In this document: piece by piece, positions 4,110 through 63,796 of the stretch
Position numbering within the stretch: position 1 is the first letter of the stretch
Layout: every line of letters begins with the position of its first letter
Assembly: GCA_030446485.1 (NCBI GenBank)
Contig: JAUJNF010000006.1
Location: forward strand, 24,956-88,955
Source: Thermoleophilaceae bacterium
Lineage (GTDB): Bacteria > Actinomycetota > Thermoleophilia > Solirubrobacterales > Thermoleophilaceae
Direction of reading: 5' to 3'
DNA length: 64,000 nucleotides
Notes under the pieces: generated by a model
Seen by the model: only the letters and a program-made list of their open reading frames with translations
Databases searched by the model: none
What the model was told of the DNA's origin: nothing
Program-made: the position numbers and the translations under genes

Positions 4110-4595
4110 ATGACGATCTCACGCACCGGACCCGCTCGCCGCGCCGCCGACCTCGAAGGGGCGCTCACGGTGATGCGCGAGGCTGGATTTCGGGCCACGG
4201 CGGCGCGGCGCCTCGTGTTGGAGGCACTGTTCGCGGCGGATGGGCCCGTGTCAGCCGACGATCTGGCCAGCGGCCTCGGGGGTCTCACGAGCCGTTCCGA
4301 CCTCGCTTCGGTGTACCGCAACCTCGAGACGCTCGAGGAGATCGGGCTCGTCCATCACCTGCACGTCGGCCACGGCCCCGGTCTGTACGCGCTGGCTCGC
4401 GAGGGAGGGCGCGAGTACCTGACCTGCCATCGCTGCGGGGCGCTTCGAGCTCTCGACTCGTCGGCCTTCGACGGGGTGCGCGCCGCGGTACGCAGCGCGT
4501 CGGGCTACGAGGCGCGGTTCGCGCACTTCCCGATCGTGGGCCTGTGCCCGGACTGCGCGGGGTCGGCAAACGGCAACGGCGTTCCGCGGTCGTGA
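4110..4595 (+). CDS. Fur-family metalloregulator
   Basis: Fur-like winged helix (SVYRNLETLEEIGLVHHLHVGHGPGLYAL) with CxxC pairs (CHRCG, CPDC). Confidence 0.85.
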   Translation: MTISRTGPARRAADLEGALTVMREAGFRATAARRLVLEALFAADGPVSADDLASGLGGLTSRSDLASVYRNLETLEEIGLVHHLHVGHGPGLYALAREGGREYLTCHRCGALRALDSSAFDGVRAAVRSASGYEARFAHFPIVGLCPDCAGSANGNGVPRS

Positions 4596-4605
4596 GGGAA
4601 GCCTG

Positions 4606-5367
4606 ATGTTCGGCCTGGACGAGGAGATCGCCGGCCTCGGTGGCGGGGACGCGGCGACGCTGATCCTGGTGGTGGCGGTCCTGCTCGGCCTGCGTCACGC
4701 GACCGATCCCGACCACCTCACCGCTGTCTCGGCCCTCATCGCCGGTGACCGTGACCGGCACACGCGCAAGGCCGGGATCCTCGGCCTGTCGTGGGGGTTC
4801 GGGCACGCCACGACGCTGATCATGCTCGGGCTGCCGATCGTGCTCTTCGACGAGTTCCTTCCCGACGAGGTCCTCCAGGGGGCGGAGGTGGCGGTCGGAG
4901 TGATGATCATCGTTCTCGCCGTGCGGCTCCTCATCCGCTGGCGCGGCGGTTACTTCCACTCCCACGAGCACACGCACGATGGCACGGCGCACCGGCATCT
5001 TCATTCGCACGCGGCCGTGAGGACCACCGATCCACACGCGCATCGCCATTCGCAGGTGCTCGGGCGATCGCCGCAACAGGCCTACGGGATCGGACTCATA
5101 CACGGCGTCGGTGGGTCGGCCGGAGTGGGCATCCTCCTGCTCGCGGCCATCGACGATCAACTGGCCGGCGTGGGCGCGCTGGTGCTCTTCGCGTTGTTCA
5201 CGGCCCTGTCCATGGCGGTCGCCTCAACGGCCTTCGGCTACGCGATCACCCGTGGACCGGTTGCCCGGCGGTTCGCGCGGCTGGCGCCCGCGCTCGCGTT
5301 TGTCAGTGTGCTCTTCGGTGCTTGGTACGTCCTCGGCGCCCTCGAGGTCATGCCGTACTACTTCTGA
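4606..5367 (+). CDS. Nickel/cobalt transporter (HoxN/NicO-like membrane protein)
   Basis: LGLRHATDPDHLTAVSALI (HxxxxDH signature), His-rich loop, multiple TM segments. Confidence 0.85.
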   Translation: MFGLDEEIAGLGGGDAATLILVVAVLLGLRHATDPDHLTAVSALIAGDRDRHTRKAGILGLSWGFGHATTLIMLGLPIVLFDEFLPDEVLQGAEVAVGVMIIVLAVRLLIRWRGGYFHSHEHTHDGTAHRHLHSHAAVRTTDPHAHRHSQVLGRSPQQAYGIGLIHGVGGSAGVGILLLAAIDDQLAGVGALVLFALFTALSMAVASTAFGYAITRGPVARRFARLAPALAFVSVLFGAWYVLGALEVMPYYF

Positions 5368-18764: not shown

Positions 18765-19583
18765 TTGCCCGCCACCACCTTCGACCCGCACGTAGCCGCC
18801 CACTGGATCGAGCGGTTTCGCGCGGGCGCCCGCGAGCGCGTGCGCGACGAGCTGGCGGTGGAGGAGCCGCTCGAGATCCGGGTCGACGGCAGCCCGCTCG
18901 CCGTGACCATGCGCACCCCCGGCGAGGACGAGGAGCTTGCGGCGGGCTTCCTCCTGGGCGAGGGGCTGGTGACCGGGCCGGGCGACCTGGCGTCCGTGGG
19001 GCTCGCGGAGGACCTCGCCGCCAACGTTGTCGAGGTCCGCACCCGAAGCGGCCTCCGGCGAGACCCGTCGGCCGAGCGCCGCTTCCACCTGAGCTCGTCG
19101 TGCGGCATCTGCGGAAAGGGAGCGCTCGAGCTCGTGCGCCAGGAGGCGCCGCCGGCCCGTCCGGTCGCGCCCGGGTCGATCGAGCCCGAGCTGGTCATAG
19201 GGGCGCCCGACCGCGCGCGCCGGGAGCAGGTGGCGTTCGAGCGCACCGGTGGCCTCCACGCCACGGCGCTCTTCGACTGCGCCGGCGAGCTCATGCTCCT
19301 GCGCGAGGACGTCGGACGCCACAACGCGATGGACAAGGCCATCGGCGCGCTTCTCCTCGCCGGCGCGCTTCCCACCCCCGGCACGGTCGCGTGCCTCAGC
19401 GGCCGCTCCTCCTTCGAGCTCGTGCAGAAGGCCGGCCTGGCGGGACTCGCCGGGATCGTGGCCGTGGGCCCGCCCTCGACGCTGGCCGTCGCCCTCGCCC
19501 GCGAGCGTGGCATGCTCCTGTGCGGATTCGTCCGCGGGGAGTCCTTCAACGTGTACGCGGGCTCTGAGCTGCTGGCCGAATAG
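18765..19583 (+). CDS. fdhD: Formate dehydrogenase accessory sulfurtransferase FdhD
   Basis: SSSCGICGKGALE (CxxC loop), FDCAGELMLLREDVGRHNAMDKAIG, CLSGRSSFELVQKA. Confidence 0.93.
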   Translation: MPATTFDPHVAAHWIERFRAGARERVRDELAVEEPLEIRVDGSPLAVTMRTPGEDEELAAGFLLGEGLVTGPGDLASVGLAEDLAANVVEVRTRSGLRRDPSAERRFHLSSSCGICGKGALELVRQEAPPARPVAPGSIEPELVIGAPDRARREQVAFERTGGLHATALFDCAGELMLLREDVGRHNAMDKAIGALLLAGALPTPGTVACLSGRSSFELVQKAGLAGLAGIVAVGPPSTLAVALARERGMLLCGFVRGESFNVYAGSELLAE

Positions 19584-47609: not shown

Positions 47610-48698
47610 TCAGCAGATGCGGGGCAGGGGATCGCCGGCCAGCATGTCCACCACGCGGCTGCCGCCGAACGCGGTGTCGAGCACGACCATGCCCGGGGGC
47701 TCGGCACGTACCTCGCCCACCACGGCGGCGTCCGCGCCGAGGGGGTGGGAGCGCAACGCGGCCACCGCCCGCTCGGCAGCCTCGGCGGCGACGATCGCCA
47801 CCAGCTTGCCCTCATTGGCCACGTACAGCGGATCGATCCCCAGGATCTCGCAGGCGCCGTTCACCTCCGGGCGCACCGGCAGGGCGGCCTCGTCGAGCGT
47901 GATTCCCACCCCGGCGGCCATCGCCAGCTCGCACATCACGGTGGCCAGCCCCCCGCGGGTGGGATCGCGCAGGCAGCGCACCTCGTCGGTGGCCTCGAGC
48001 AGTGTCGCCACCAGCTCGTGGAGCGGCGCGCTGTCGCTCTCGAGGTCCACCTCCAGCTCGAGCTCCCCGCGGGCGATCATGATCGCCATGCCGTGATCTC
48101 CCAGCGTGCCCGACACGATCACGCGGTCGCCGGTACGGATGGCCGCCGGCCCGAGCTTGAGGTCGTGGTCCACGGTCGCCACCCCCGAGGTGCACACGTA
48201 CAGGCCGTCGGCCTTGCCCCGCTCGACCACTTTCGTGTCGCCGGCCACGACCGCCACCCCCGCGTCCCTGGCCGCCCTCCCCATCGAGGCCGCCACCCGC
48301 TGCAGGTCGGCGGTCGGGAAGCCCTCCTCAATGATGAAGCCCGCGGACAGGTACAGCGGCCGTCCGCCCGCCATGGCCAGGTCGTTCACCGTCCCGTTCA
48401 CCGCCAGCTCGCCGATGTCGCCGCCGGGGAAGAAGAGAGGCTTCACGACGTAGGAGTCGGTCGAGAGGGCCACGCCCGGGCCGACCTCGTCGTAGAGCCT
48501 GAAGCTCGCGCTGTCCCCCATGGGCTCGAGCAGCGGGTTGCCGAGCTCCTTCATGAACAGGGTCTCTACGAGCACGTGGGTGGACTTGCCACCGGCGCCG
48601 TGAGCGAGCGTCACGTGCTCGTCCATCAGCTTCACGTGCGGCCGCCGCCGCCGGCGCTCGATCGCGTCGAGCACGTCCTGCTCGGTGCGCGCCGCCAT
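47610..48698 (-). CDS. hypE: Hydrogenase expression/formation protein HypE
   Basis: LAHGAGGKSTHVLVETLF, VVAGDTKVVERGKADGLYV, C-terminal DPLPRIC. Confidence 0.95.
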   Translation of the reverse strand: MAARTEQDVLDAIERRRRRPHVKLMDEHVTLAHGAGGKSTHVLVETLFMKELGNPLLEPMGDSASFRLYDEVGPGVALSTDSYVVKPLFFPGGDIGELAVNGTVNDLAMAGGRPLYLSAGFIIEEGFPTADLQRVAASMGRAARDAGVAVVAGDTKVVERGKADGLYVCTSGVATVDHDLKLGPAAIRTGDRVIVSGTLGDHGMAIMIARGELELEVDLESDSAPLHELVATLLEATDEVRCLRDPTRGGLATVMCELAMAAGVGITLDEAALPVRPEVNGACEILGIDPLYVANEGKLVAIVAAEAAERAVAALRSHPLGADAAVVGEVRAEPPGMVVLDTAFGGSRVVDMLAGDPLPRIC

Positions 48699-48703
48699 CC
48701 GGT

Positions 48704-49866
48704 TCAGGAGCCGGCCGGGTGCGCCGCGACCGCCAGGGACTCCCGAGCCTCGGTCGCACGACCGCGCCGCCGTGCCAGGCGGCCGTAGTTGTAGTAGGCG
48801 GCGCAGGCGCCCTCGCTGGAGACCATGCACGTGCCGATCGGGCGCTCCGGGGTGCACGCCGTGCCGAAGACCTTGCACTCCCACGGCTTGATCACGCCCT
48901 TCAGGACCTCACCGCACTGGCAGGCCTTGGGGTCGGCCACGCGCACGCCGGGCAGCTCGAAGCGCACCTCGGCGTCCCAGGCGGCGAACTCCGGGCGCAG
49001 CTTGAGGGCGCTCTGGGAGATGAAGCCAAGGCCGCGCCACTCGAACGTCGTGCGCAGCTCCATCGTCTGGGCGATCGCCTTCAGCGCCAGCGGGTTGCCC
49101 TCCTCGCGGACCACGCGCGCGTACTGGTTCTCCACCTCGCTGCGGCCCTCGGCGAGCTGGCGCATGACCATGTAGACGCCCTGCAGCACGTCGAGCGGCT
49201 CGAACCCGGAGACCACCACCGGCCGCGCGTAGTCACGGGCGATGAAGCGGTAGGGGCGGTTGCCGATCACGGTCGACACGTGGCCCGGCCCCAGGAAGCC
49301 GTCGAGGCGCAGGTCGGGCGAGTCGAGGATGGCCCGGATCGCCGGGATGATCGTCACGTGGTTGGCGAACAAATAGAAGTTCGAGATCCCCTCGGCGCGG
49401 GCTCGGAGCAGCGTGAGCGCGGTGGAGGAGCCGTGGTCTCGAAGCCGATCGCGAAGAAGACGACCTCGCGGCTCGGGTTTTGCCGGGCCACCTTCAGGGC
49501 GTCGAGCGGCGAGTACACCATCCGCACGTCCGCCCCGCGCGCCTTGGCGTCGAGCAGGGAGCCGCGGGTCGAGGGCACCCGCATCATGTCGCCGAACGTC
49601 GTGAAGATCACCTCGGGGCGCTCGGCCAGGGCGATCGCGTCGTCCTGGCGGCCCATCGGGATCACGCACACCGGGCACCCGGGCCCGTGCACGAGCTCGA
49701 TCTCGGGCGGCAGCACGTCCTCGACGCCGTGCTTGTAGATGGCGTGCGTGTGCCCACCGCACACCTCCATCAGCTTGTAGTGGCGTCCCGGCTCGACCAG
49801 CGCGGAGATCTCCTCCGCCATTCGACGCGCGTGGTCGCTCGAGCGGTACTCGTCCACGAACCTCAT
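48704..49866 (-). CDS. hypD: Hydrogenase formation protein HypD (one apparent frameshift)
   Basis: [36 protein letters not shown]; frame switches near 49425; [47 protein letters not shown]. Confidence 0.93.
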
Positions 49867-51245
49867 CGCAGGTCTACGATCGCCTCGAGCAGCAGGTGAT
49901 AGATGGTGGCATGGGCCTCCTGGAGGCGCGGCACGTAGTCGCTGCCCACCACGAACAGGTGGTCGAGCCAGTCGAGCTCGGCCAGGCGCCCGCCGTCGTA
50001 GCCGGTGATCGCCACCGTGAGCATCTGTCGGCGGCGGGCCTCTTCCAGCCCGGCCACCACGTTGCGCGACGACCCGCTGGTGGAGATGGCAAGGGCGACG
50101 TCGCCGGCGCGCCCGAGCGGAATGAGCTGGCGGGCGAACACGTTGTCGAAGCCCACGTCGTTGGCCACGGCGGTGACGGTTGCCACGTCGCCCGTCAGGC
50201 ACACGGCCGGCCACCCGCGCGCCAGGAAGTCACCCGCCGCGTCCTGGGCGTCGGTGGAGGAGCCGCCGTTGCCGAAGGCGATCAGGCGGCCACCGGCCTC
50301 CAGACGCTCGCGCACCGCCGCGGCGCAGCCCTCGACGGCCGCGAGGTCGATTGCCCGCTGCAGCTCGATGGTGTCGGCGCCCTTGCGGACGGTCGAGGCC
50401 CGCACGTCGGCCAGGACGGTCTCGAGATCGTGCTCCTGCGACTCCAGGAAGGGGTAGAGAAAGCCGGTCGGATCCTCGGGCGCGGGTGCGGCCGCGGGCT
50501 CCGGATCGGAGCGCTCCGGCAGCCGCTCGAGCGCCACGCCGGCGTGGCACAGCAGCACGTCGCCCACACACGCGCCCTCGACGAGGTCGACCGCCACCTC
50601 CTCGCGCAGGCCATCCCGCTCGATCATCGCCATGCTCCCGCGCAGGCCCACGACGCGGGCCTCGACCGCGACGTCGCCGCACGTGATGCAGGCCTCGTCG
50701 AGGAGCCCTGGGTGCTCGAAGAACACGTGCACGAGCTCCCACAGCACGTGGTAGGCCGTCTCCTGCGCCTCCTGCACGACCTGCGGGTCGTCGCTCGCCA
50801 CCGAGAACGAGTGATCCGCGCCGCCGGTAGTCCCGCCACCGGTCAGCGCGATCGTGAGCAGGCCGCGCCGCCGCGCCTCGGCGAGGAACGCCGTGACGGC
50901 GGGCTCCTGGGCGCCGTGGCTGATGCCCATCGCGATGTCGCCCGCCCGGCCCAGGCGGCCCAGGCTCGAGGCGCCGGTGGGGTCGTTCACCGGGGCGAGC
51001 GCCGGCAGCGCGCGCTTGCCCACGATCACCGGGTGCATGAACTCGACCGCCACGTGGGCAGCGTCGGTGGCGGCCGCCCCCGTCCCAAAGGGGATGAGCA
51101 CCCCGCCGCGGGCGAAGGCGCGTGCCATGTCGTGGCAGGCGCGCGCGATCCGGTCGCCGTCCCGCGCGAACAGCGACGACAGCGCGTCGCGCCGGGCGTC
51201 GAGCAGCGGGGAGAGCCGACCGGCGGTCGGCGCGGAGGCGCTCAC
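49863..51245 (-). CDS. SIS-HypC-SIS fusion protein (GmhA-like phosphosugar isomerase domains flanking a HypC-like domain)
   Basis: First [25 protein letters not shown]; HypC-like: [54 protein letters not shown]; second [27 protein letters not shown]...[14 protein letters not shown]. Confidence 0.85.
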
Positions 51246-51520
51246 TCGATCGAGCTCGACTTCAGCTCTTCGAGCTCGGACTCGTAGTGCTCGCCGAGCG
51301 TCTCCATGAACTCGATCGTGGAGCGCGCCTCCTCCTCGTCGATCTTCGACATGGCGAAGCCCACGTGGATCAGGACCCAGTCGCCCATGCCCACGGCCTC
51401 GGGGCCGTCGCTCAGCAGGGCGACGTTGACGTTGCGCCTGACGCCCGACACCTCGGCCTTGGCGATGTGGTGCTCGGCGTCGACGAAGTCGACGATCTGG
51501 CCGGGAATCCCTAGGCACAT
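51242..51520 (-). CDS. hypC: Hydrogenase maturation chaperone HypC
   Basis: MCLGIPGQIVDFVDAEHHIAKAEVSGVRRNVNVALL...GDWVLIHVGFAMSKIDEEEA. Confidence 0.94.
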   Translation of the reverse strand: MCLGIPGQIVDFVDAEHHIAKAEVSGVRRNVNVALLSDGPEAVGMGDWVLIHVGFAMSKIDEEEARSTIEFMETLGEHYESELEELKSSSIE

Positions 51521-53694
51521 GCTGCGCTCCTCCTCGCCGCCACCGCGGCCTGTCCGTAGCTGATCCCGCCGTCGTTCGGAGGCACGTGGCGGTGGGTGAG
51601 CACCCGGAACCCGAGCCGCTCCAGCCGCCGCCGCACCGAGCCGAGCAGCCGCAAATTCTGGAAGCTTCCCCCGGAGAGTACGACGGTGCCCGGCCCGCCC
51701 GCGCCGGCACAGGCCTCGGCGGCGATCGCGGCCACGCCCTCGTGGAAGGCCGCGGCGATCTGGGCGCGCGGCCGCCCGGCGGCCAGGTCGTCGTGGGCCG
51801 CCGCCACCAGGTCGGCCCCGGCGATCACGCCGTCGCGCAGCCCGCACGGGTAGGGCTCGGCCGGCGCCTCGCCGGCCAGCTGTTCGAGCTCTATCGCGGC
51901 CTGGCCCTCGTAGGTAACGCGGTCGCGCACGCCGAGCAGCGCGGACACGGCGTCGAACAGGCGGCCCATCCCGGACGACAGCGGGGCGTTCACGCCGAGG
52001 CCCTGGCGCACGAGCGGCCAGCGCTCGTAGGGCACCGGCCGTCCCGCCCGCTCGAGGTGGGCGGCGGCGGTCCGCCAAGGCTCGCGGATCGCCGCCTCGC
52101 CGCCGGGAAGGGGCACCGGCTCGAGGTGGGCCACGCGCTCGAAGCCCTCGAGGTCGCAGCGCAGCAGCTCGCCGCCCCAGATCGTGCCGTCGGTGCCCTG
52201 GCCCGTGCCGTCGAACACGAGCGCCAGCGCCGGACCCTCTTCGCCGTGCTCGGCCAGGCAGGCGGCCGCGTGCGCGTGGTGGTGCTGCACCTCGACGAGC
52301 TCGGTCCCCTGCTCGCGCGCCCAGGTCGTGGACAGGTAGCCGGGATGGAGGTCGCAGGCCACCACCTCCGGCCGGACCCCCAGCATCTCGAGATAGAGGT
52401 CGAGGTCGATCCGGAAGGCGCGGTAGGCGGTCGCGTCGTGGAGGTCGCCGAGGTGCGGGGAGAGGAACGCCCGGGCGCCGCGGGCCACGCAGAACGTGTT
52501 CTTCAGCTCGGCTCCTGCGGCCACGATCGACCGCTCGGCGGGCACCGGTAGGGCCAGCGCCGCCGGGGCGTGGCCGCGCGACCGGCGAAGGGGAAACGCC
52601 GAGCGCACGACCGAGTCCTCGCAGCGGCGGTGGATCGGGCGGTCGTGGGCGAGGAACGCGTCGGCGATCGCCCCGAGGCGTTCTCGGGCCTCGGCGTCGT
52701 CGTAGGCGATCGGCTCGTCGGAGCGGTTGCCGCTCGTCATCACGAGCGGTCCGCCGAAGTCGGCCGCGAGCAGGTGGTGGAGCGGCGTATAGGGCAGCAT
52801 CACCCCGAGCCAGTCACCACCGGGTGCCACCGCCCGCGCCACCCGCGCCGCCGCGCGCCGCCTCACCAGCACGATCGGCCGCTCGGGGGAGCGGAGCAGC
52901 GCCTCCTCGGCGGGGTCGACCGCCGCGACGGCCGCCGGGTCGGCCGCCATGACCGCGAACGGCTTCTCCTCGCGATGCTTGCGGGCCCTCAGCCGGGACA
53001 CCGCGGCCTCGCTCGCCGCATCGCAGGCGAGGTGGTAGCCGCCCAGGCCCTTCACGGCGACGATGGCGCCGCCGCGGAGGAGCGCGACCGCATCCTCGAG
53101 CGGCATGGACAGCCGCGGGCCGCAGGCCGGGCAGGCGATCGGCTCCGCGTGGAAGCGGCGGTCGCCGGGATCCTCGTACTCGCGCCGGCAGTCCGCGCAC
53201 ATCGGGAATCCGGCCATGGTGGTGTTGGCCCGGTCGTAGGGCACCGCGCGCACGATCGTGAGGCGCGGGCCGCAGCGCGTGCAGTTCAGGAACGGGTATC
53301 GGTGGCGCCGGTCGGCCGGGTCGAAGAGCTCGCGCAGGCAGTCGTCGCAGGTCGCGAGGTCGGGCGGGATCGCCGCCGTCCGGTCGCCGGCGCCGGCTCG
53401 GCTGGGGGCGATCGCGAAGCCGCGCTCGCCGGTCGGCGGCACGGCACGCGCGACCACCGACTCCACCCGCGCGTGCGAGGGCGCCTCGCGGCTCAGGTCG
53501 CCGAGGAACCGGTCGAGCGCCTGCGGCTGGCCCTCGGCCTCGATGACCACGCCGCGGGCGTCGTTGAGGACGAACCCGTCGAGCCGATGGCGCTGCGCCA
53601 GCGTGTACACGAACGGACGGAAGCCCACGCCCTGCACCCGACCCAGCACCTCGCACCGGCGGCGCTCGAGCGTGGGCGGCGCCGCTACGGCCAC
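51511..53694 (-). CDS. hypF: Carbamoyltransferase HypF
   Basis: Acylphosphatase VLGRVQGVGFRPFVYTLA, zinc fingers CDDCLRELFDP...CTRCGPR, YrdC-like and carbamoyltransferase domains (HHHAHAAACLAEHG). Confidence 0.95.
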   Translation of the reverse strand: MAVAAPPTLERRRCEVLGRVQGVGFRPFVYTLAQRHRLDGFVLNDARGVVIEAEGQPQALDRFLGDLSREAPSHARVESVVARAVPPTGERGFAIAPSRAGAGDRTAAIPPDLATCDDCLRELFDPADRRHRYPFLNCTRCGPRLTIVRAVPYDRANTTMAGFPMCADCRREYEDPGDRRFHAEPIACPACGPRLSMPLEDAVALLRGGAIVAVKGLGGYHLACDAASEAAVSRLRARKHREEKPFAVMAADPAAVAAVDPAEEALLRSPERPIVLVRRRAAARVARAVAPGGDWLGVMLPYTPLHHLLAADFGGPLVMTSGNRSDEPIAYDDAEARERLGAIADAFLAHDRPIHRRCEDSVVRSAFPLRRSRGHAPAALALPVPAERSIVAAGAELKNTFCVARGARAFLSPHLGDLHDATAYRAFRIDLDLYLEMLGVRPEVVACDLHPGYLSTTWAREQGTELVEVQHHHAHAAACLAEHGEEGPALALVFDGTGQGTDGTIWGGELLRCDLEGFERVAHLEPVPLPGGEAAIREPWRTAAAHLERAGRPVPYERWPLVRQGLGVNAPLSSGMGRLFDAVSALLGVRDRVTYEGQAAIELEQLAGEAPAEPYPCGLRDGVIAGADLVAAAHDDLAAGRPRAQIAAAFHEGVAAIAAEACAGAGGPGTVVLSGGSFQNLRLLGSVRRRLERLGFRVLTHRHVPPNDGGISYGQAAVAARRSAACA

Positions 53695-55031: not shown

Positions 55032-55050
55032 TAGGTGTACCGTACATCTA
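55032..55050. promoter_or_regulatory. Palindromic operator candidate 2: TAGGTGTACCGTACATCTA
   Basis: Second copy 38 bp downstream, differing only at the central base. Confidence 0.75.
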
Positions 55051-55103
55051 TCGCCCTCTCAGGAGTGGGGCGCCGGCGCAAGACCACCCGGGGAGGGGAC
55101 GCG

Positions 55104-56540
55104 ATGGCCACCAGAACAGCCGCCAGAAGGGGGAAGGCCAACGGGGCGGGACCCGAGCCCACGCCGGCCGAGCGCCTGCTGGCCGCGCTGGGCCCCACCG
55201 GCGACCGCTACTTCGAGGACGCGAACCTCGGCGACTTCGGGCTCCCGGCGCGCGTCGACACCGAGACCTTCCTCGAGCCCCACGCCAAGGCGGGGCCCGC
55301 GAGCCGGCTCGGTCCCCTCGAGAAGGTGCACGCCTTCTGGTTCGCGGGCATGAGCTGCGACGGGTGCTCGGTGGCCGTCACCGGTGCGCAGGCTCCGTCG
55401 CTCGAGGATCTGCTCCTGGGCGCCCATCCCGGCCTTCCCCGCGTGGTGCTCCACCACCCGGTGATCAACCTCGAGTCGGGCCCGCACTACCTGCGGCCGC
55501 ACGAGCTCGCCCTGAAGGGTGAGCTCGACGCGCCCTACGTGATCATCCTCGAGGGCTCCAACACCGACGAGACGCACCCGATCGAGACCGGTGGCTACTG
55601 GGCCGGTGTGGGGGAGGAGCCGTGGGGTCCGGACGGCCAGATGCGCACGGTCACCACCGACGAGTGGATTGCCCGCCTGGCCCCCGGCGCCGCTGCGTCG
55701 CTCGCGATCGGCACCTGTGCCACCTGGGGCGGGATCCCCTCGGCGGCAGGCAACCCGACCGGGGCGATGAGCCTGATGGACTTCCTCGGCAAGGACTACC
55801 GCAGCGCGCTCGGCGTACCCGTGGTGAACGTCCCGGGCTGCCCGCCGATCGGCGACAACTTCAACGAGACGGTCGCCGCGATCCTCTACTTCCTGCAGGG
55901 CTTCGGGCCGCTGCCCGAGTTCGACGACCTGGGCCGGCCGGCGTGGCTGTTCGGGGAGACGGTCCATCGGCACTGCGTGCGCGGGGCGTACTACGAGGAG
56001 GGCAACTACGCGGAGGAGTTCGGTGACCCGGAGTGCCTCGTGGAGATCGGCTGCTGGGGCCCGGTCGTGAACTGCAACATCACCTCGCGCGGGGCGATCA
56101 ACTACCACGGTGGGTGCATGAACTCGGGCGGCGCGTGCATCGGTTGCACGATGCCCGGCTTCCCCGACAAGTTCACGCCCTTCCACAAGCGGCCACCCGG
56201 CTCGGCGGTCTCGACCGCGGCGTCACGCGTGCTGGGCAGCCTGATCACCCCACTGCGCCGGTACAGCAACGAGCACCTCGACCGTGAGGTGCGCTGGGAC
56301 CTCCACGGCGAGGTGCCGAGCGGCTGGGCCTCTGAGAAGACCGAACCGGGCTTCATCAGGGGCTACGGCCACAAGTTCTATGACCGCCTGCGCCGCTCCG
56401 GTGACGGGGGCAAGAGCAACGCCGAGACCTGGGGCAAGCAGACCGAGTGGACGCAGGAGCGGGATCCCGCCCGCGAGCTCGAGCTGCCCGGCGGCCCCGA
56501 GTCCACCACCACCGGAACCACCGGCCCGCGGGAGACCTGA
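55104..56540 (+). CDS. [NiFe]-hydrogenase small subunit, group 1h-like
   Basis: FWFAGMSCDGCSVAVTGA, AIGTCATWGGIPSA, VNVPGCPPIGDNF, CXXGC-rich FeS ligands; no obvious Tat signal. Confidence 0.92.
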   Translation: MATRTAARRGKANGAGPEPTPAERLLAALGPTGDRYFEDANLGDFGLPARVDTETFLEPHAKAGPASRLGPLEKVHAFWFAGMSCDGCSVAVTGAQAPSLEDLLLGAHPGLPRVVLHHPVINLESGPHYLRPHELALKGELDAPYVIILEGSNTDETHPIETGGYWAGVGEEPWGPDGQMRTVTTDEWIARLAPGAAASLAIGTCATWGGIPSAAGNPTGAMSLMDFLGKDYRSALGVPVVNVPGCPPIGDNFNETVAAILYFLQGFGPLPEFDDLGRPAWLFGETVHRHCVRGAYYEEGNYAEEFGDPECLVEIGCWGPVVNCNITSRGAINYHGGCMNSGGACIGCTMPGFPDKFTPFHKRPPGSAVSTAASRVLGSLITPLRRYSNEHLDREVRWDLHGEVPSGWASEKTEPGFIRGYGHKFYDRLRRSGDGGKSNAETWGKQTEWTQERDPARELELPGGPESTTTGTTGPRET

Positions 56541-56541
56541 C

Positions 56542-58443
56542 ATGTGCTTCAAGAACCTGCCCATCGAGTTCGACGAGGGGGGGGTCGCGACCCTCAGGGG
56601 CGGCATTCCCGACCCGTACTCGGTGACCGTCACCAAGCCCGACGTGGGCAAGACGGACGCCGACCGCGAGGCCGAGATCAAGGAGCTGGTGGCCCGCAAC
56701 GGGCACATCAAGGACCTCAACATGGACCCGGTCACCCGCATCGCCGGCGCCATGGCGGTGAACGTGACCGCCGACCTCCAGGGGGGCCGTTACCTCGACT
56801 CGCGCTCGCAGGCCACGCTCTTCCGCGGGTACGAGGTGATCCTGATGGGCCGCGATCCCCGTGACGCGAGCTACGTGGCGTCACGCGCCTGCGGGGTGTG
56901 TGGTGGGGTTCACTCGCACGCGTCCGCCTACGCCGTCGAGATGGCGATGGGCATTGCGCCGCCACCGCTCGGCACCGCGATCCGCAACATGGGCGAGGCG
57001 GCCGAGATGGGCTACGACAACCCGCTCCATCTCTACCTCCTGGCCGGGCCCGACTACTCGGAAGCCGTGATCAAGGCGGTGAACCCCGAGCTCTGGCCCA
57101 AGGCGCAGGCCTGGCGGTGCCCGGGCGAGAAGCACCACGGCTTCAGGACGATGGCCGACCTCATGACCGCGCTCAACCCGCTGACGGGGTCGCTCTACCG
57201 CGAGGGGCTCGACTTCACCCGCCTGTCGCGCGAGATGTGCGTGCTTCTCTGGGGCAAGTACCCGCACCCCCAGACGGTGGTGCCGGGCGGGATGTCGAGC
57301 ACCATCACCCTTCAGAGCCTGAACGAGTACCACTCGAAGCTCGGCCGCATCTTCGACTACGCGCAGCGGCTGATGGCCGTGTGGGACGACATCCCGGAGT
57401 TCTTCTACGAGGCCGACGAGCGCTACAAGCAGGTCGGGTCACGGGCGATGAACTTCGTCGATCCCGGCTACTGGGACCAGCCCGATGCCTACGACGCGCG
57501 CTACGAGACGTGCGACGACTGGGGCGAGAAGCGCTGGTCCACGCCGGGCGCCATCATCGACGGCGAGCTCGTGACCACGCGGCTCACCGACCTGAACATG
57601 GGCTGGGAGGAGTTCGTCGAGCACTCCTACTACGACGAGTGGAGCGGCGACCGCTATCCGACGGACCCCAACGGCAACCCGCTGAGCCCGTACCACTCGT
57701 GGAACAAGCGGACGCTCCCCAAGCCCCAGGAGAAGAACTGGAAGGACAAGTACACCTGGGCCACGGCGCCGAGGTGGGATCGCAAGGTGGTCGAGGCCGG
57801 CGCCTACGTCAGGCTGTTCACCACCGCCATGGCCCAGAAGCAGCCGGCGAACGACTTCATCGAGGCCACGGGCCACGGCCTGCGGATGAGGATCCCCAAG
57901 GGCAACAGCCCGGAGACCGAGGTCGAGTGGCGCGTCCCCGAGACCTGGAACGCCTTCGAGCGCAATCGCGGGCGGGCGTACCACTACGTGTTCTCGCAGC
58001 TCGTAGGGATGGCGAACCTGCTGGAGGCCTACCGGCTGTTCGCCAAGGGCGACACCAAGGTGGCCGCCGTCGCACCGGGAGACCTCGACAAGCACATGCC
58101 GAAGGAGGAGACGCGCGGGGTCGGGTTCTGGGGCGCCGGCCGCGGGTGGCTCACCCACCACCTGAGCATGGAGAAGGGCAAGCTCACCAACTACCAGATC
58201 TGCACGCCGTCCACGATCAACGCCTCCCCCCGCGATCCGTGGGACCAGCCGGGCCCGTACGAGGAGGCGGTGATGAACACGCCGATCATCGAGGACGTCT
58301 CCGACCCGTCCAAGTTCACGTCGATCGACATGCTCCGGACCATTCGCAGCTTCGATCCCTGCATGCCGTGCACGACGCACGTGCACACGGGCGCCGGCAC
58401 GGTCGTGCGCGAGGTGAACACCTGCTCCTGCGGAGTCGACTGA
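56542..58443 (+). CDS. [NiFe]-hydrogenase large subunit, group 1h-like
   Basis: Ni ligands: RACGVCGGVHSHA (L1) and SFDPCMPCTTHVHTG (L2) plus short C-terminal extension. Confidence 0.95.
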   Translation: MCFKNLPIEFDEGGVATLRGGIPDPYSVTVTKPDVGKTDADREAEIKELVARNGHIKDLNMDPVTRIAGAMAVNVTADLQGGRYLDSRSQATLFRGYEVILMGRDPRDASYVASRACGVCGGVHSHASAYAVEMAMGIAPPPLGTAIRNMGEAAEMGYDNPLHLYLLAGPDYSEAVIKAVNPELWPKAQAWRCPGEKHHGFRTMADLMTALNPLTGSLYREGLDFTRLSREMCVLLWGKYPHPQTVVPGGMSSTITLQSLNEYHSKLGRIFDYAQRLMAVWDDIPEFFYEADERYKQVGSRAMNFVDPGYWDQPDAYDARYETCDDWGEKRWSTPGAIIDGELVTTRLTDLNMGWEEFVEHSYYDEWSGDRYPTDPNGNPLSPYHSWNKRTLPKPQEKNWKDKYTWATAPRWDRKVVEAGAYVRLFTTAMAQKQPANDFIEATGHGLRMRIPKGNSPETEVEWRVPETWNAFERNRGRAYHYVFSQLVGMANLLEAYRLFAKGDTKVAAVAPGDLDKHMPKEETRGVGFWGAGRGWLTHHLSMEKGKLTNYQICTPSTINASPRDPWDQPGPYEEAVMNTPIIEDVSDPSKFTSIDMLRTIRSFDPCMPCTTHVHTGAGTVVREVNTCSCGVD

Positions 58444-60988: not shown

Positions 60989-61507
60989 TTAGCCGGGGTG
61001 CGGCTGGATCTGGAGAAGCGTGGGGCCCGGTGGCGGGTGTGCCGGGCCGTCGTCCTCCTCGACCTCCATGGCCCTGAAGCCGGCGAAGTTGTCCCGGAGG
61101 GCCTCCTCGACGCCCTCGCGGAGGGTGACCGCCGATGCGGTGCAGCCCGAGCAGGCGCCCGAGAGCTTCAGCTGCACGACTCCGGCCTCCGCGCCGAGCA
61201 CGTCCACGCTGCCGCCGTGCGACTCGATGTAGGGGCGGACCGACTCGAGCGCGGCGTCGGCCGCGGCCCGCTCGTCGATCCCCACGGCGTAGGCGTCGAA
61301 CAGCCAGCCGACGGCCGGATCTGCGCCGCGCAACTGCTCGAGCGTCTCGGGCTCGAGCGTCTGGCCCAGGCGGCCGAGGGCCATCCGGTGCATGGCGTCG
61401 ATACCGTCCAGGAGCTCGAAGACCTGCTCGCGCACGGGGTCGTCGAGCGCCTCGATCTCGCCGAGAAGCTCCTCGAGCCTCTGGAGAACGTCATCGAATC
61501 CGCCCAT
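60989..61507 (-). CDS. NifU C-terminal domain protein
   Basis: VRPYIESHGGSVDVLGAEAGVVQLKLSGACSGCTASAVTLREGVEEAL (CxxC). Confidence 0.88.
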   Translation of the reverse strand: MGGFDDVLQRLEELLGEIEALDDPVREQVFELLDGIDAMHRMALGRLGQTLEPETLEQLRGADPAVGWLFDAYAVGIDERAAADAALESVRPYIESHGGSVDVLGAEAGVVQLKLSGACSGCTASAVTLREGVEEALRDNFAGFRAMEVEEDDGPAHPPPGPTLLQIQPHPG

Positions 61508-61581
61508 GGCCTAACTCTACGCCCCGACCGGCGGGCTCCTCGCCGGTCGCGGGGGGCCACACCGGTCCCGCGGGGGCGGCC

Positions 61582-62058
61582 GTGACCCGCATCATCGTCG
61601 CCTGCGTGGGAAACGTGCTTCGGGGGGATGACGGCTTCGGGCCCGTGGTCGCCTCCCGCCTCGGCCCACTGCCCGAGGGAGCCGAGCTCCTGGAAACCGG
61701 CATCGGCGGCATTGCGCTGCTGCAGGAGCTGATGGCCGGGTGCGACGGCCTGGTGGTGGTCGACGCGATGGAGCGCGGCGCCCCGCCCGGAACCGTCTTC
61801 GTGCTCGATCCCGACATCCAGGCGGCCGAGGAGGCCGTCCGCGTCCCGGACATGCACCTGGCGAACCCCGACCGCGTGCTGGCGATGGCCAGCGGCCTCG
61901 GCTGCCTCCCGGAGCGCCGACTCGTGGTGGGCTGTCAGCCGGCCGACGTTGACGGCGTCGGCGAAGCACTCTCTCCAGAGGTCGAGCGGGCGGTGCACGT
62001 GGCCATCGAGCGGGTGCACGAGACCGTCAGGGCGTGGTTGGCCCCGGGCGCAACGTGA
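61582..62058 (+). CDS. Hydrogenase maturation protease (M52, HyaD/HupD-like)
   Basis: IIVACVGNVLRGDDGFGPVVASRL, VVVDAMERGAPPGTVFVLD. Confidence 0.9.
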   Translation: MTRIIVACVGNVLRGDDGFGPVVASRLGPLPEGAELLETGIGGIALLQELMAGCDGLVVVDAMERGAPPGTVFVLDPDIQAAEEAVRVPDMHLANPDRVLAMASGLGCLPERRLVVGCQPADVDGVGEALSPEVERAVHVAIERVHETVRAWLAPGAT

Positions 62059-62679: not shown

Positions 62680-63441
62680 ATGAAGGTCGCGATCGCCGGC
62701 AAGGGAGGCTCGGGCAAGACCTCGATATCGGGGACGCTCGCGCGGATACTCGCGCGCCGTGGCCGGCACGTGCTGGCCATCGACGCGGACTCGAACCCCA
62801 ACCTCGCGCTCACGCTCGGCATCCCCGCCGAGCAGATGGGCAGCATGCCCACGCTGCCCCGCGACCTGCTGCGGCGCACCGACAGCGGCACCGAGCTCAC
62901 GAAGACGCTCGACGAGGTCTACGCATCCCATTCGGTCACCGGCCCGGACGGCGTAAGGCTCCTGGTGATGGCGCATCCGCAGCACGCGGGCACCGGGTGA
63001 CTCTGCTCCCTGCACGCTACGGTTCGTAGCGTGATCGAGGCGGCCGGGGACACCCCCGAGGACGTCACCATCCTCGACACCGAGGCCTCTCCCGAGCACC
63101 TCTCGCGCGGCACCGCCCGTTACGCCGACGCGATGCTCACCGTCGTCGAGCCCTACTACAAGTCGCTGGAGACGGGCCGTCGCATGGCCGTGCTCGGCAA
63201 GGACCTCGGGCTCGACCACGTGGCGCTCGTGGCCAACAAGATCCGCGACGAGCGGGATCTCGCGGCCGTGCGGGAGTTCGCCACCCAGCACGAGCTCGAG
63301 CTGGCCGGGGTGATCCCCTTCGACGAGCACCTGACCGACGCCGAGCGCGCTTCGATCGCGCCGCTCGACCATGACCCCGACGCGCCGGCGATGGTGGCGA
63401 TCGGCGAGCTCGAGGAGGCGCTGAAGAATGGACGAGCTTGA
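62680..63441 (+). CDS. CooC-like (MinD/SIMIBI) Ni-insertion ATPase interrupted by in-frame TGA at codon 107; candidate selenoprotein
   Basis: KVAIAGKGGSGKTSISGTLARILARRGRHVLAIDADSNPNLAL, then GTG-(TGA)-LCSLHATVRSV, DTEASPEHLSRGTARYADAMLTVVEPYYKSLETGRRMA; both halves are in the same frame. Confidence 0.85.
63013..63033 (+). promoter_or_regulatory. Hairpin CACGCTACG-GTT-CGTAGCGTG, candidate bacterial SECIS element
   Basis: Perfect 9-bp stem, GGU at apex about 21 nt after the TGA (62998-63000). Confidence 0.6.
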
Positions 63442-63796
63442 GGCCCTGAGGGTGCGCGACGAGGTGCTCCAGGCCATGTACTGGATGCGCGCCGAGGGCC
63501 TGGCCGAGGCTCCGGGGGCGGCCGAGCTGGCGCGCTTCCTGGCGGTGCCGCCCGCGACGCTCGGGCCCTACCTCGAGCGCTTCACGGAGGACGGCTACCT
63601 GGCACGCCCCGACGGCGATGGCTACCGGCTGACCGCCTCGGGGGAGGACGCCGGCAAGCGCACCTTCGCCGACGAGTTCGCCGACCTCACCCGGCCCGGC
63701 CACGGCGAGTGCGACGCCGACTGCTGGTGCCACGACTCGCCCGAGGACGCCGCGCGTTGCCTGGAGGAGCGGGCGGGGCACGCCCACTCGCACTGA
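63428..63796 (+). CDS. Winged-helix-like protein with metal-binding C-terminus
   Basis: Overlaps the CooC-like gene; C-terminus CDADCWCHDSPEDAARCLEERAGHAHSH. Confidence 0.65.
   Translation: MDELEALRVRDEVLQAMYWMRAEGLAEAPGAAELARFLAVPPATLGPYLERFTEDGYLARPDGDGYRLTASGEDAGKRTFADEFADLTRPGHGECDADCWCHDSPEDAARCLEERAGHAHSH

Follow-up and report, generated by a model that had tools for sequence, protein, structure and literature searches.

Does the in-frame TGA in a CooC-like ATPase gene of a Thermoleophilaceae bacterium encode selenocysteine (Sec, U), and what would the resulting protein do? This gene is found at positions 62680..63441 on the forward strand of a 64,000-nucleotide stretch of contig JAUJNF010000006.1 (assembly GCA_030446485.1), which as a whole is referred to as the window. 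The gene ends with a TGA stop codon (63439-63441), and its predicted product is a P-loop ATPase of 253 amino acid residues including Sec107. The initial annotation described a complete CooC-like ATPase in one reading frame broken only by a TGA, and this description was correct: the sole break is the TGA at 62998-63000, which is codon 107. Third-position GC was 0.93 upstream and 0.91 downstream of this TGA, so both halves of the gene look coding and appear to be under the same constraint. An ordinary open reading frame (ORF) finder split the gene into two pieces at the TGA, and genes of this kind are therefore likely to be hidden in annotated genomes. The predicted Sec is the first residue of a CxC-type metal motif, U-L-C, whose second residue is Cys109 (TGC, 63004..63006). 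Thus, the TGA had been assigned properly to the first residue of the motif, but the position given for the motif, near residues 112-114, needed a small correction, as the matching QCYC pair of CooC1 (PDB 3KJE) aligns here with residues 107/109.

Homologs of the ATPase were searched for in 399 genomes of the class, and a phylum-level search and named records added further rows. The orthologs in the class were 66-79% identical to the ATPase, most of which had exactly one in-frame TGA, while the rest had TGC or TGT at the same place. In the alignment (A1), the TGA column was invariantly U or C. Among the 102 rows of family A, to which the ATPase belongs, 42 had U at this column and 60 had C, with no other residue found. 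Thus, when the column was checked for C or U, as the initial annotation had proposed, every aligned homolog carried one or the other. A quick tree of these 102 rows required at least 9 switches between U and C, a count that is approximate given the uncertain deep branches. The named records added rows from Solirubrobacterales, Thermoleophilaceae and Candidatus Siliceabacter. U-forms were also identified in SAR324 (two loci, L077 and L079), a Verrucomicrobia record (L091), an unclassified bacterium (L080) and, by the phylum search, further families of Actinomycetota. The Cys forms were from Acidimicrobiia, Pseudonocardia, Saprospiraceae and others. One genome (G298) possessed two copies of the ATPase gene (L063:7102-7801 and L064:5030-5729), each with apparent frameshifts that may be errors or decay.

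Downstream of the TGA is a perfect 9-bp hairpin, CACGCTACG-GTT-CGTAGCGTG (63013..63033, forward strand), which resembles a bacterial selenocysteine insertion sequence (SECIS) and is conserved in most of the UGA-containing relatives. It begins at nucleotide +13 past the TGA, leaving a gap of 12 nucleotides, and both its position and its pairing agreed with those given before. Only 5 perfect 9-bp hairpins with loops of 3 to 5 nucleotides were found in the whole window, and 4 of the 1156 TGA triplets on both strands of the window had a perfect 9-bp hairpin at the right distance. In a synonymous-codon null for this gene, 1.8% of resamples were as stable or more stable. A single sequence is thus only moderate evidence, and the force of the argument comes from the relatives. 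Of 41 UGA sites, 29 from distinct genes were chosen to assess covariation because they had the same register; not used were the 12 sites of 8 HARVR-group genes, two SAR324 genes, L091 and L058. Within the 29 genes, seven hairpin pairs were formed in 96.6% of the cells, and registers shifted by 1-3 bases were paired in no more than 49%. Both sides had changed in three of the seven pairs, with U-A replaced by C-G in 8 rows and C-G replaced by U-A in 3 and 2 rows, respectively. These 13 compensatory cells compared with 2.6 in shuffles, and none of 500 shuffles reached 13. In the Cys genes, most of these pairs were broken. Moreover, all UGA genes of family A taken together folded better than the Cys genes relative to synonymous-codon resampling (p 0.005, kinship uncorrected). 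The hairpin was therefore, as the proposed check had asked, kept in UGA homologs with compensatory changes and lost in Cys genes, and in its sequence pattern the conserved hairpin behaves as a predicted SECIS. One Cys form (L032:1303-2055, TGT) retained about half of the hairpin (GGTTCGTAGCGTG) and looks like a recent Sec-to-Cys conversion.

The host genome (G000), a 2.6-Mb draft that is 76% complete, encodes the Sec machinery on which the proposal depends: a tRNA-Sec with anticodon TCA (66 bits), SelA (505 bits), SelB, whose gene adjoins that of SelA, and SelD (389 bits). It also encodes a canonical Sec-containing formate dehydrogenase (IENQARI-U-HSSTVPGLG), in which the TGA is followed by GGTCCCC-GGTCT-GGGGACC in the ordinary layout of bacterial SECIS, and the formate dehydrogenases of relatives displayed the same Sec pattern. 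A probable FdhD, named from its sequence, is encoded at 18765-19583 of the window and fits this enzyme. Elsewhere, a UGA-containing formate dehydrogenase (L192, G077:C24) was found in a 97%-complete assembly in which no SelA was found, and in G332 SelB was matched only in part and SelA was not found. It was also considered whether the Cys forms merely result from loss of the Sec machinery, which would apply to some genera at most. For instance, g17 kept SelA and SelB beside a Cys-form ATPase.

The identity of the protein as CooC-like, which had been claimed from the sequence, was borne out by PDB sequence and fold searches, in both of which CooC1 of Carboxydothermus hydrogenoformans (3KJE) came first. 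The sequence match had an E value of 8e-27 and placed QCYC on G-U-L-C. The AlphaFold model of the ATPase had a mean predicted local distance difference test score of 88.9, and its first fold match had an E value of 1.4e-16; the surroundings of U107 are among the least certain parts of this model (56 for block 101-110). Similar to CooC1 (PDB 3KJE-3KJI), the accessory ATPase of nickel-dependent carbon monoxide dehydrogenase (Ni-CODH), the protein is a P-loop ATPase of the MinD/NifH fold with the CxC motif at the same place, present as U-x-C here and as C-x-C in relatives. CooC1 reportedly binds nickel at this CxC in the dimer interface. Different from CooC1, however, the first Cys is a predicted Sec, the neighbor is a [NiFe]-hydrogenase, and no Ni-CODH catalytic subunit CooS was found in the 76%-complete host genome (no TIGR01702 match). 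Ni-CODH was thus rejected as the client. The ATPase gene matched neither an NCBIfam selenoprotein model nor the NCBIfam model of HypB (TIGR00073). By these comparisons, the predicted protein is CooC-like and not a CODH-specific CooC.

The neighboring hydrogenase is presumably an oxidizer of hydrogen from air. Its large subunit, of group 1h type (56284..58443, forward strand; Pfam NiFeSe_Hases), is an ORF whose true start lies further in. The best PDB match of this subunit was HofG (5AA5; E value 7e-138), which we take to be an actinobacterial hydrogenase of the group 1h type. The small subunit is encoded at 55035..56540 on the same strand. The adjacency to a [NiFe]-hydrogenase described in the initial annotation was not confined to this locus, as the linkage to group 1h-type hydrogenase recurs across loci and phyla: the ATPase gene was found beside [NiFe]-hydrogenase and Hyp genes in some 40 loci, including those of SAR324, Saprospiraceae, Pseudonocardia and Acidimicrobiia. 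The UGA forms in particular were in most cases neighbors of this kind of hydrogenase. In the host genome, neither HypA nor HypB over the cut-off of TIGR00073 was found. HypA, and HypB over the cut-off, were also missing from seven UGA-form genomes (G003, G162, G079, G179, G226, G298, and G124), all of which are at least 91% complete. Given these seven genomes, the group 1h-type hydrogenase probably receives its nickel from the ATPase, which would take the place of HypA/HypB.

Directly downstream, and overlapping the ATPase gene, is a gene for a winged-helix-like protein of 122 amino acid residues (63428..63796, forward strand), the probable partner of the ATPase. Its tail, HGEC-x3-CWC-H...C, was kept in the 40 homologs aligned and often had a His-rich end; no match to Pfam or NCBIfam was found. 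The conserved residues suggest metal binding, and the protein may be a HypA-like carrier of nickel or else a regulator.

Reading of the UGA as Sec is very well supported by the column, the hairpin and the machinery taken together. We also regard it as highly likely that the ATPase gene encodes a CooC-like U-x-C selenoprotein that loads nickel into the adjacent hydrogenase with the help of its downstream partner. The ribosome would read UGA codon 107 as Sec, directed by the downstream hairpin together with SelB and tRNA-Sec, and the product would be a MinD-fold CooC-like ATPase in which the CxC metal motif has turned into Sec-x-Cys. A homodimer would hold nickel between its two U-x-C motifs and, driven by ATP, would release it to the large subunit of the neighboring [NiFe]-hydrogenase of group 1h type. 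The ATPase would work with the Cys/His-rich protein whose gene follows its own, and the two may stand in for HypA/HypB in many of these bacteria. Within this scheme, the sequences themselves show the frame, the exchange of U and C, the covarying hairpin, the Sec machinery, the homology and fold shared with CooC1 and the linkage to hydrogenase. We infer that Sec is inserted in vivo, that the metal is nickel, that its site lies in the dimer, that ATP drives its release and that selenium brings a benefit, perhaps softer metal binding or faster exchange, or else protection of the site in air or easier recovery after oxidation.

Several observations weigh against this scheme. No SelA was found in 4 of 18 UGA-form genomes, all four of which are fragmented assemblies that are 74-91% complete. 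HypA and HypB are encoded elsewhere in some genomes with members of the family (G231, G191, G107, and G077). The folding difference between UGA and Cys genes of family A, uncorrected for kinship, is modest. In SAR324, the HARVR group and the Verrucomicrobia record, the pairing is weaker or shifted to another register, and L058 is without the consensus stem. Finally, four U-forms (L033, L034, L058, and L069) have U-L-G, and the corresponding Cys forms (L054, L060, and L061) have C-M-G or C-L-G. As this U-x-G subfamily is without the second Cys, the metal site is not identical throughout the family.

The same subfamily bears on the alternative that survives best, although we consider it unlikely: that Sec-x-Cys is not a metal site but a redox switch or reductant (selenylsulfide/dithiol) for the hydrogenase, Fe-S clusters or a maturation partner. 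A simple metal site should have a second thiol, which the U-x-G forms do not have, but these forms are also without an intramolecular redox partner. Most known UxC and UxxC selenoproteins are thought to be redox-active (PMC13188914), and the hosts are presumably soil bacteria exposed to air. The fold and the closest relative, however, are those of the nickel-binding ATPase CooC1 with its CxC motif, and the gene is linked to those for a nickel enzyme and its assembly, all of which argues for a metal site.

A pseudogene or an assembly error, in which the TGA is a true stop or a miscalled TGC or TGT, is very improbable. TGA and TGC differ by one base and the source is a draft genome; however, about 40 other distinct homologs, spread over several phyla, have the same TGA, and in them the flanking frames are intact and the hairpins conserved. 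These independent occurrences exclude a base error and refute this reading for the family, and third-position GC was equal on both sides. There is hardly any chance that the UGA is a functional stop separating an N-terminal protein of 106 residues from a C-terminal protein starting at GTG 63031, for although the ORF finder listed both pieces, LCSLHATVR, the motif that the family conserves best, is encoded between the TGA and this GTG, and the column is Cys in unsplit relatives. Reassignment of UGA in the genome to an amino acid such as Trp or Cys, with no selenium involved, would likewise account for an in-frame UGA that is read through, but is next to incredible given that the ATPase gene itself ends in TGA, the genome has the full Sec machinery, the aligned residue is Cys and never Trp, and the hairpin is conserved in UGA genes only.

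Nickel loading by a Sec-containing CooC-like ATPase invites comparison with other systems. Similar to HypB and HypA, which serve [NiFe]-hydrogenases as GTPase and chaperone for nickel, the ATPase is proposed to deliver nickel to the large subunit in a nucleotide-driven manner; different from HypB, it belongs to another family, and neither HypB over the cut-off nor HypA was found in the host and several good relatives. Similar to [NiFeSe] hydrogenases, selenium would serve in hydrogen metabolism with Sec near nickel. In [NiFeSe] hydrogenases, however, Sec is part of the catalytic subunit, whereas here the hydrogenase keeps Cys (DPCMPC) and the assembly factor has the predicted Sec. By description, the ATPase can also be likened to the MinD-type HypB-like ATPase of the archaeon Thermococcus, which presumably belongs to the MinD family and delivers nickel to hydrogenase; to our knowledge, no Sec is known in that protein. 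CobW/COG0523 is another family that we take to be nucleotide-binding and involved in metal trafficking. A Sec form has been predicted for a CobW-related protein (PMC13188914, Table 1); it differs from the ATPase in having UxxC instead of UxC, in belonging to another NTPase family and in that no link to hydrogenase is shown here. The CobW-related protein is among the 119 prokaryotic selenoprotein families inventoried in a 2026 review, from which CooC is absent (PMC13188914), in agreement with the earlier statement that CooC is not among the standard bacterial selenoprotein families. No report of a Sec-containing CooC was found in the open-access literature either. Thus, within this literature, the CooC-like ATPase would be a new selenoprotein family.

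A second CooC-like gene, paralog B, lies outside the window, about 8.2 kb downstream of the end of the ATPase gene (G000:C16:96594-97307; L050:12594-13301), and contains PGCQ-U-CGVS. Paralog B also occurs in Pseudonocardia nigra DSM 104088, which is in culture. In its relatives the motif is either PG-U-x-U-C, whose two UGA codons are six bases apart, or PGCxCC, which has no Sec. The hairpin of paralog B, CCCGAGC-AGTT-GCTCGGG, differs from that of the ATPase gene, and it also occurs in compensatory forms (GCTGAGC/GCTCAGC and GCCGAGC/GCTCGGC). Its core, GAGCAGTTGCTC, was found in all 19 UGA genes and in none of the 16 Cys genes. In the synonymous-codon test, UGA and Cys genes also differed strongly in folding (p 6e-6, kinship uncorrected). 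The two UGA codons of the U-x-U-C relatives apparently share one hairpin. A third CooC-like gene (L050:11775-12542), which is without the motif cysteines, adjoins the Sec paralog in most loci. This arrangement suggests a heterodimer of a non-binding and a metal-binding ATPase.

A wider proposal can be made, to which we would give an even chance: in aerobic trace-gas oxidizers, Sec-containing CooC-type ATPases (U-x-C, U-x-G, C-x-U-C, and double-Sec U-x-U-C) together with a Cys/His-rich partner may replace HypA/HypB, and the uptake of atmospheric H2 in these soils may depend on selenium via assembly factors rather than the enzyme. If the Sec reading is true, the metal-loading ATPases of the CooC/MinD group would come to include a selenocysteine form, and the supply of selenium would be tied to hydrogen uptake by soil actinobacteria. 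A HypA/HypB-independent route of nickel loading is also suggested. Moreover, the natural Sec/Cys pairs across the tree and the double-Sec motifs would make the question of why selenium and not sulfur is used testable in one family.

The remaining genes for hydrogenase maturation in the window are on both strands. On the reverse strand are those for a HypE-like protein with AIR synthase domains (47610..48884), a fusion of a SIS domain and HypC (49863..51710), a HypF-type hydrogenase maturation protein (51511..53694), an ORF named from its sequence that is conserved near the ATPase gene in relatives, and a NifU-like domain protein (60989..61507) that is conserved in these loci. On the forward strand is an ORF with a domain of the hydrogenase maturation protease HycI (61135..62058). 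The window also contains HypD, named from its sequence. Further away in the window, a gene for a NicO-type nickel transporter (4606-5367) adjoins one for a probable Fur-family regulator (4110-4595), also named from its sequence. Finally, L050 encodes an FtsH-like protein with two AAA domains and a peptidase M41 domain (L050:9006-11717) and a probable substrate-binding protein of an ABC transporter (L050:6771-8948), again named from its sequence; both have relatives that are found repeatedly near these loci.
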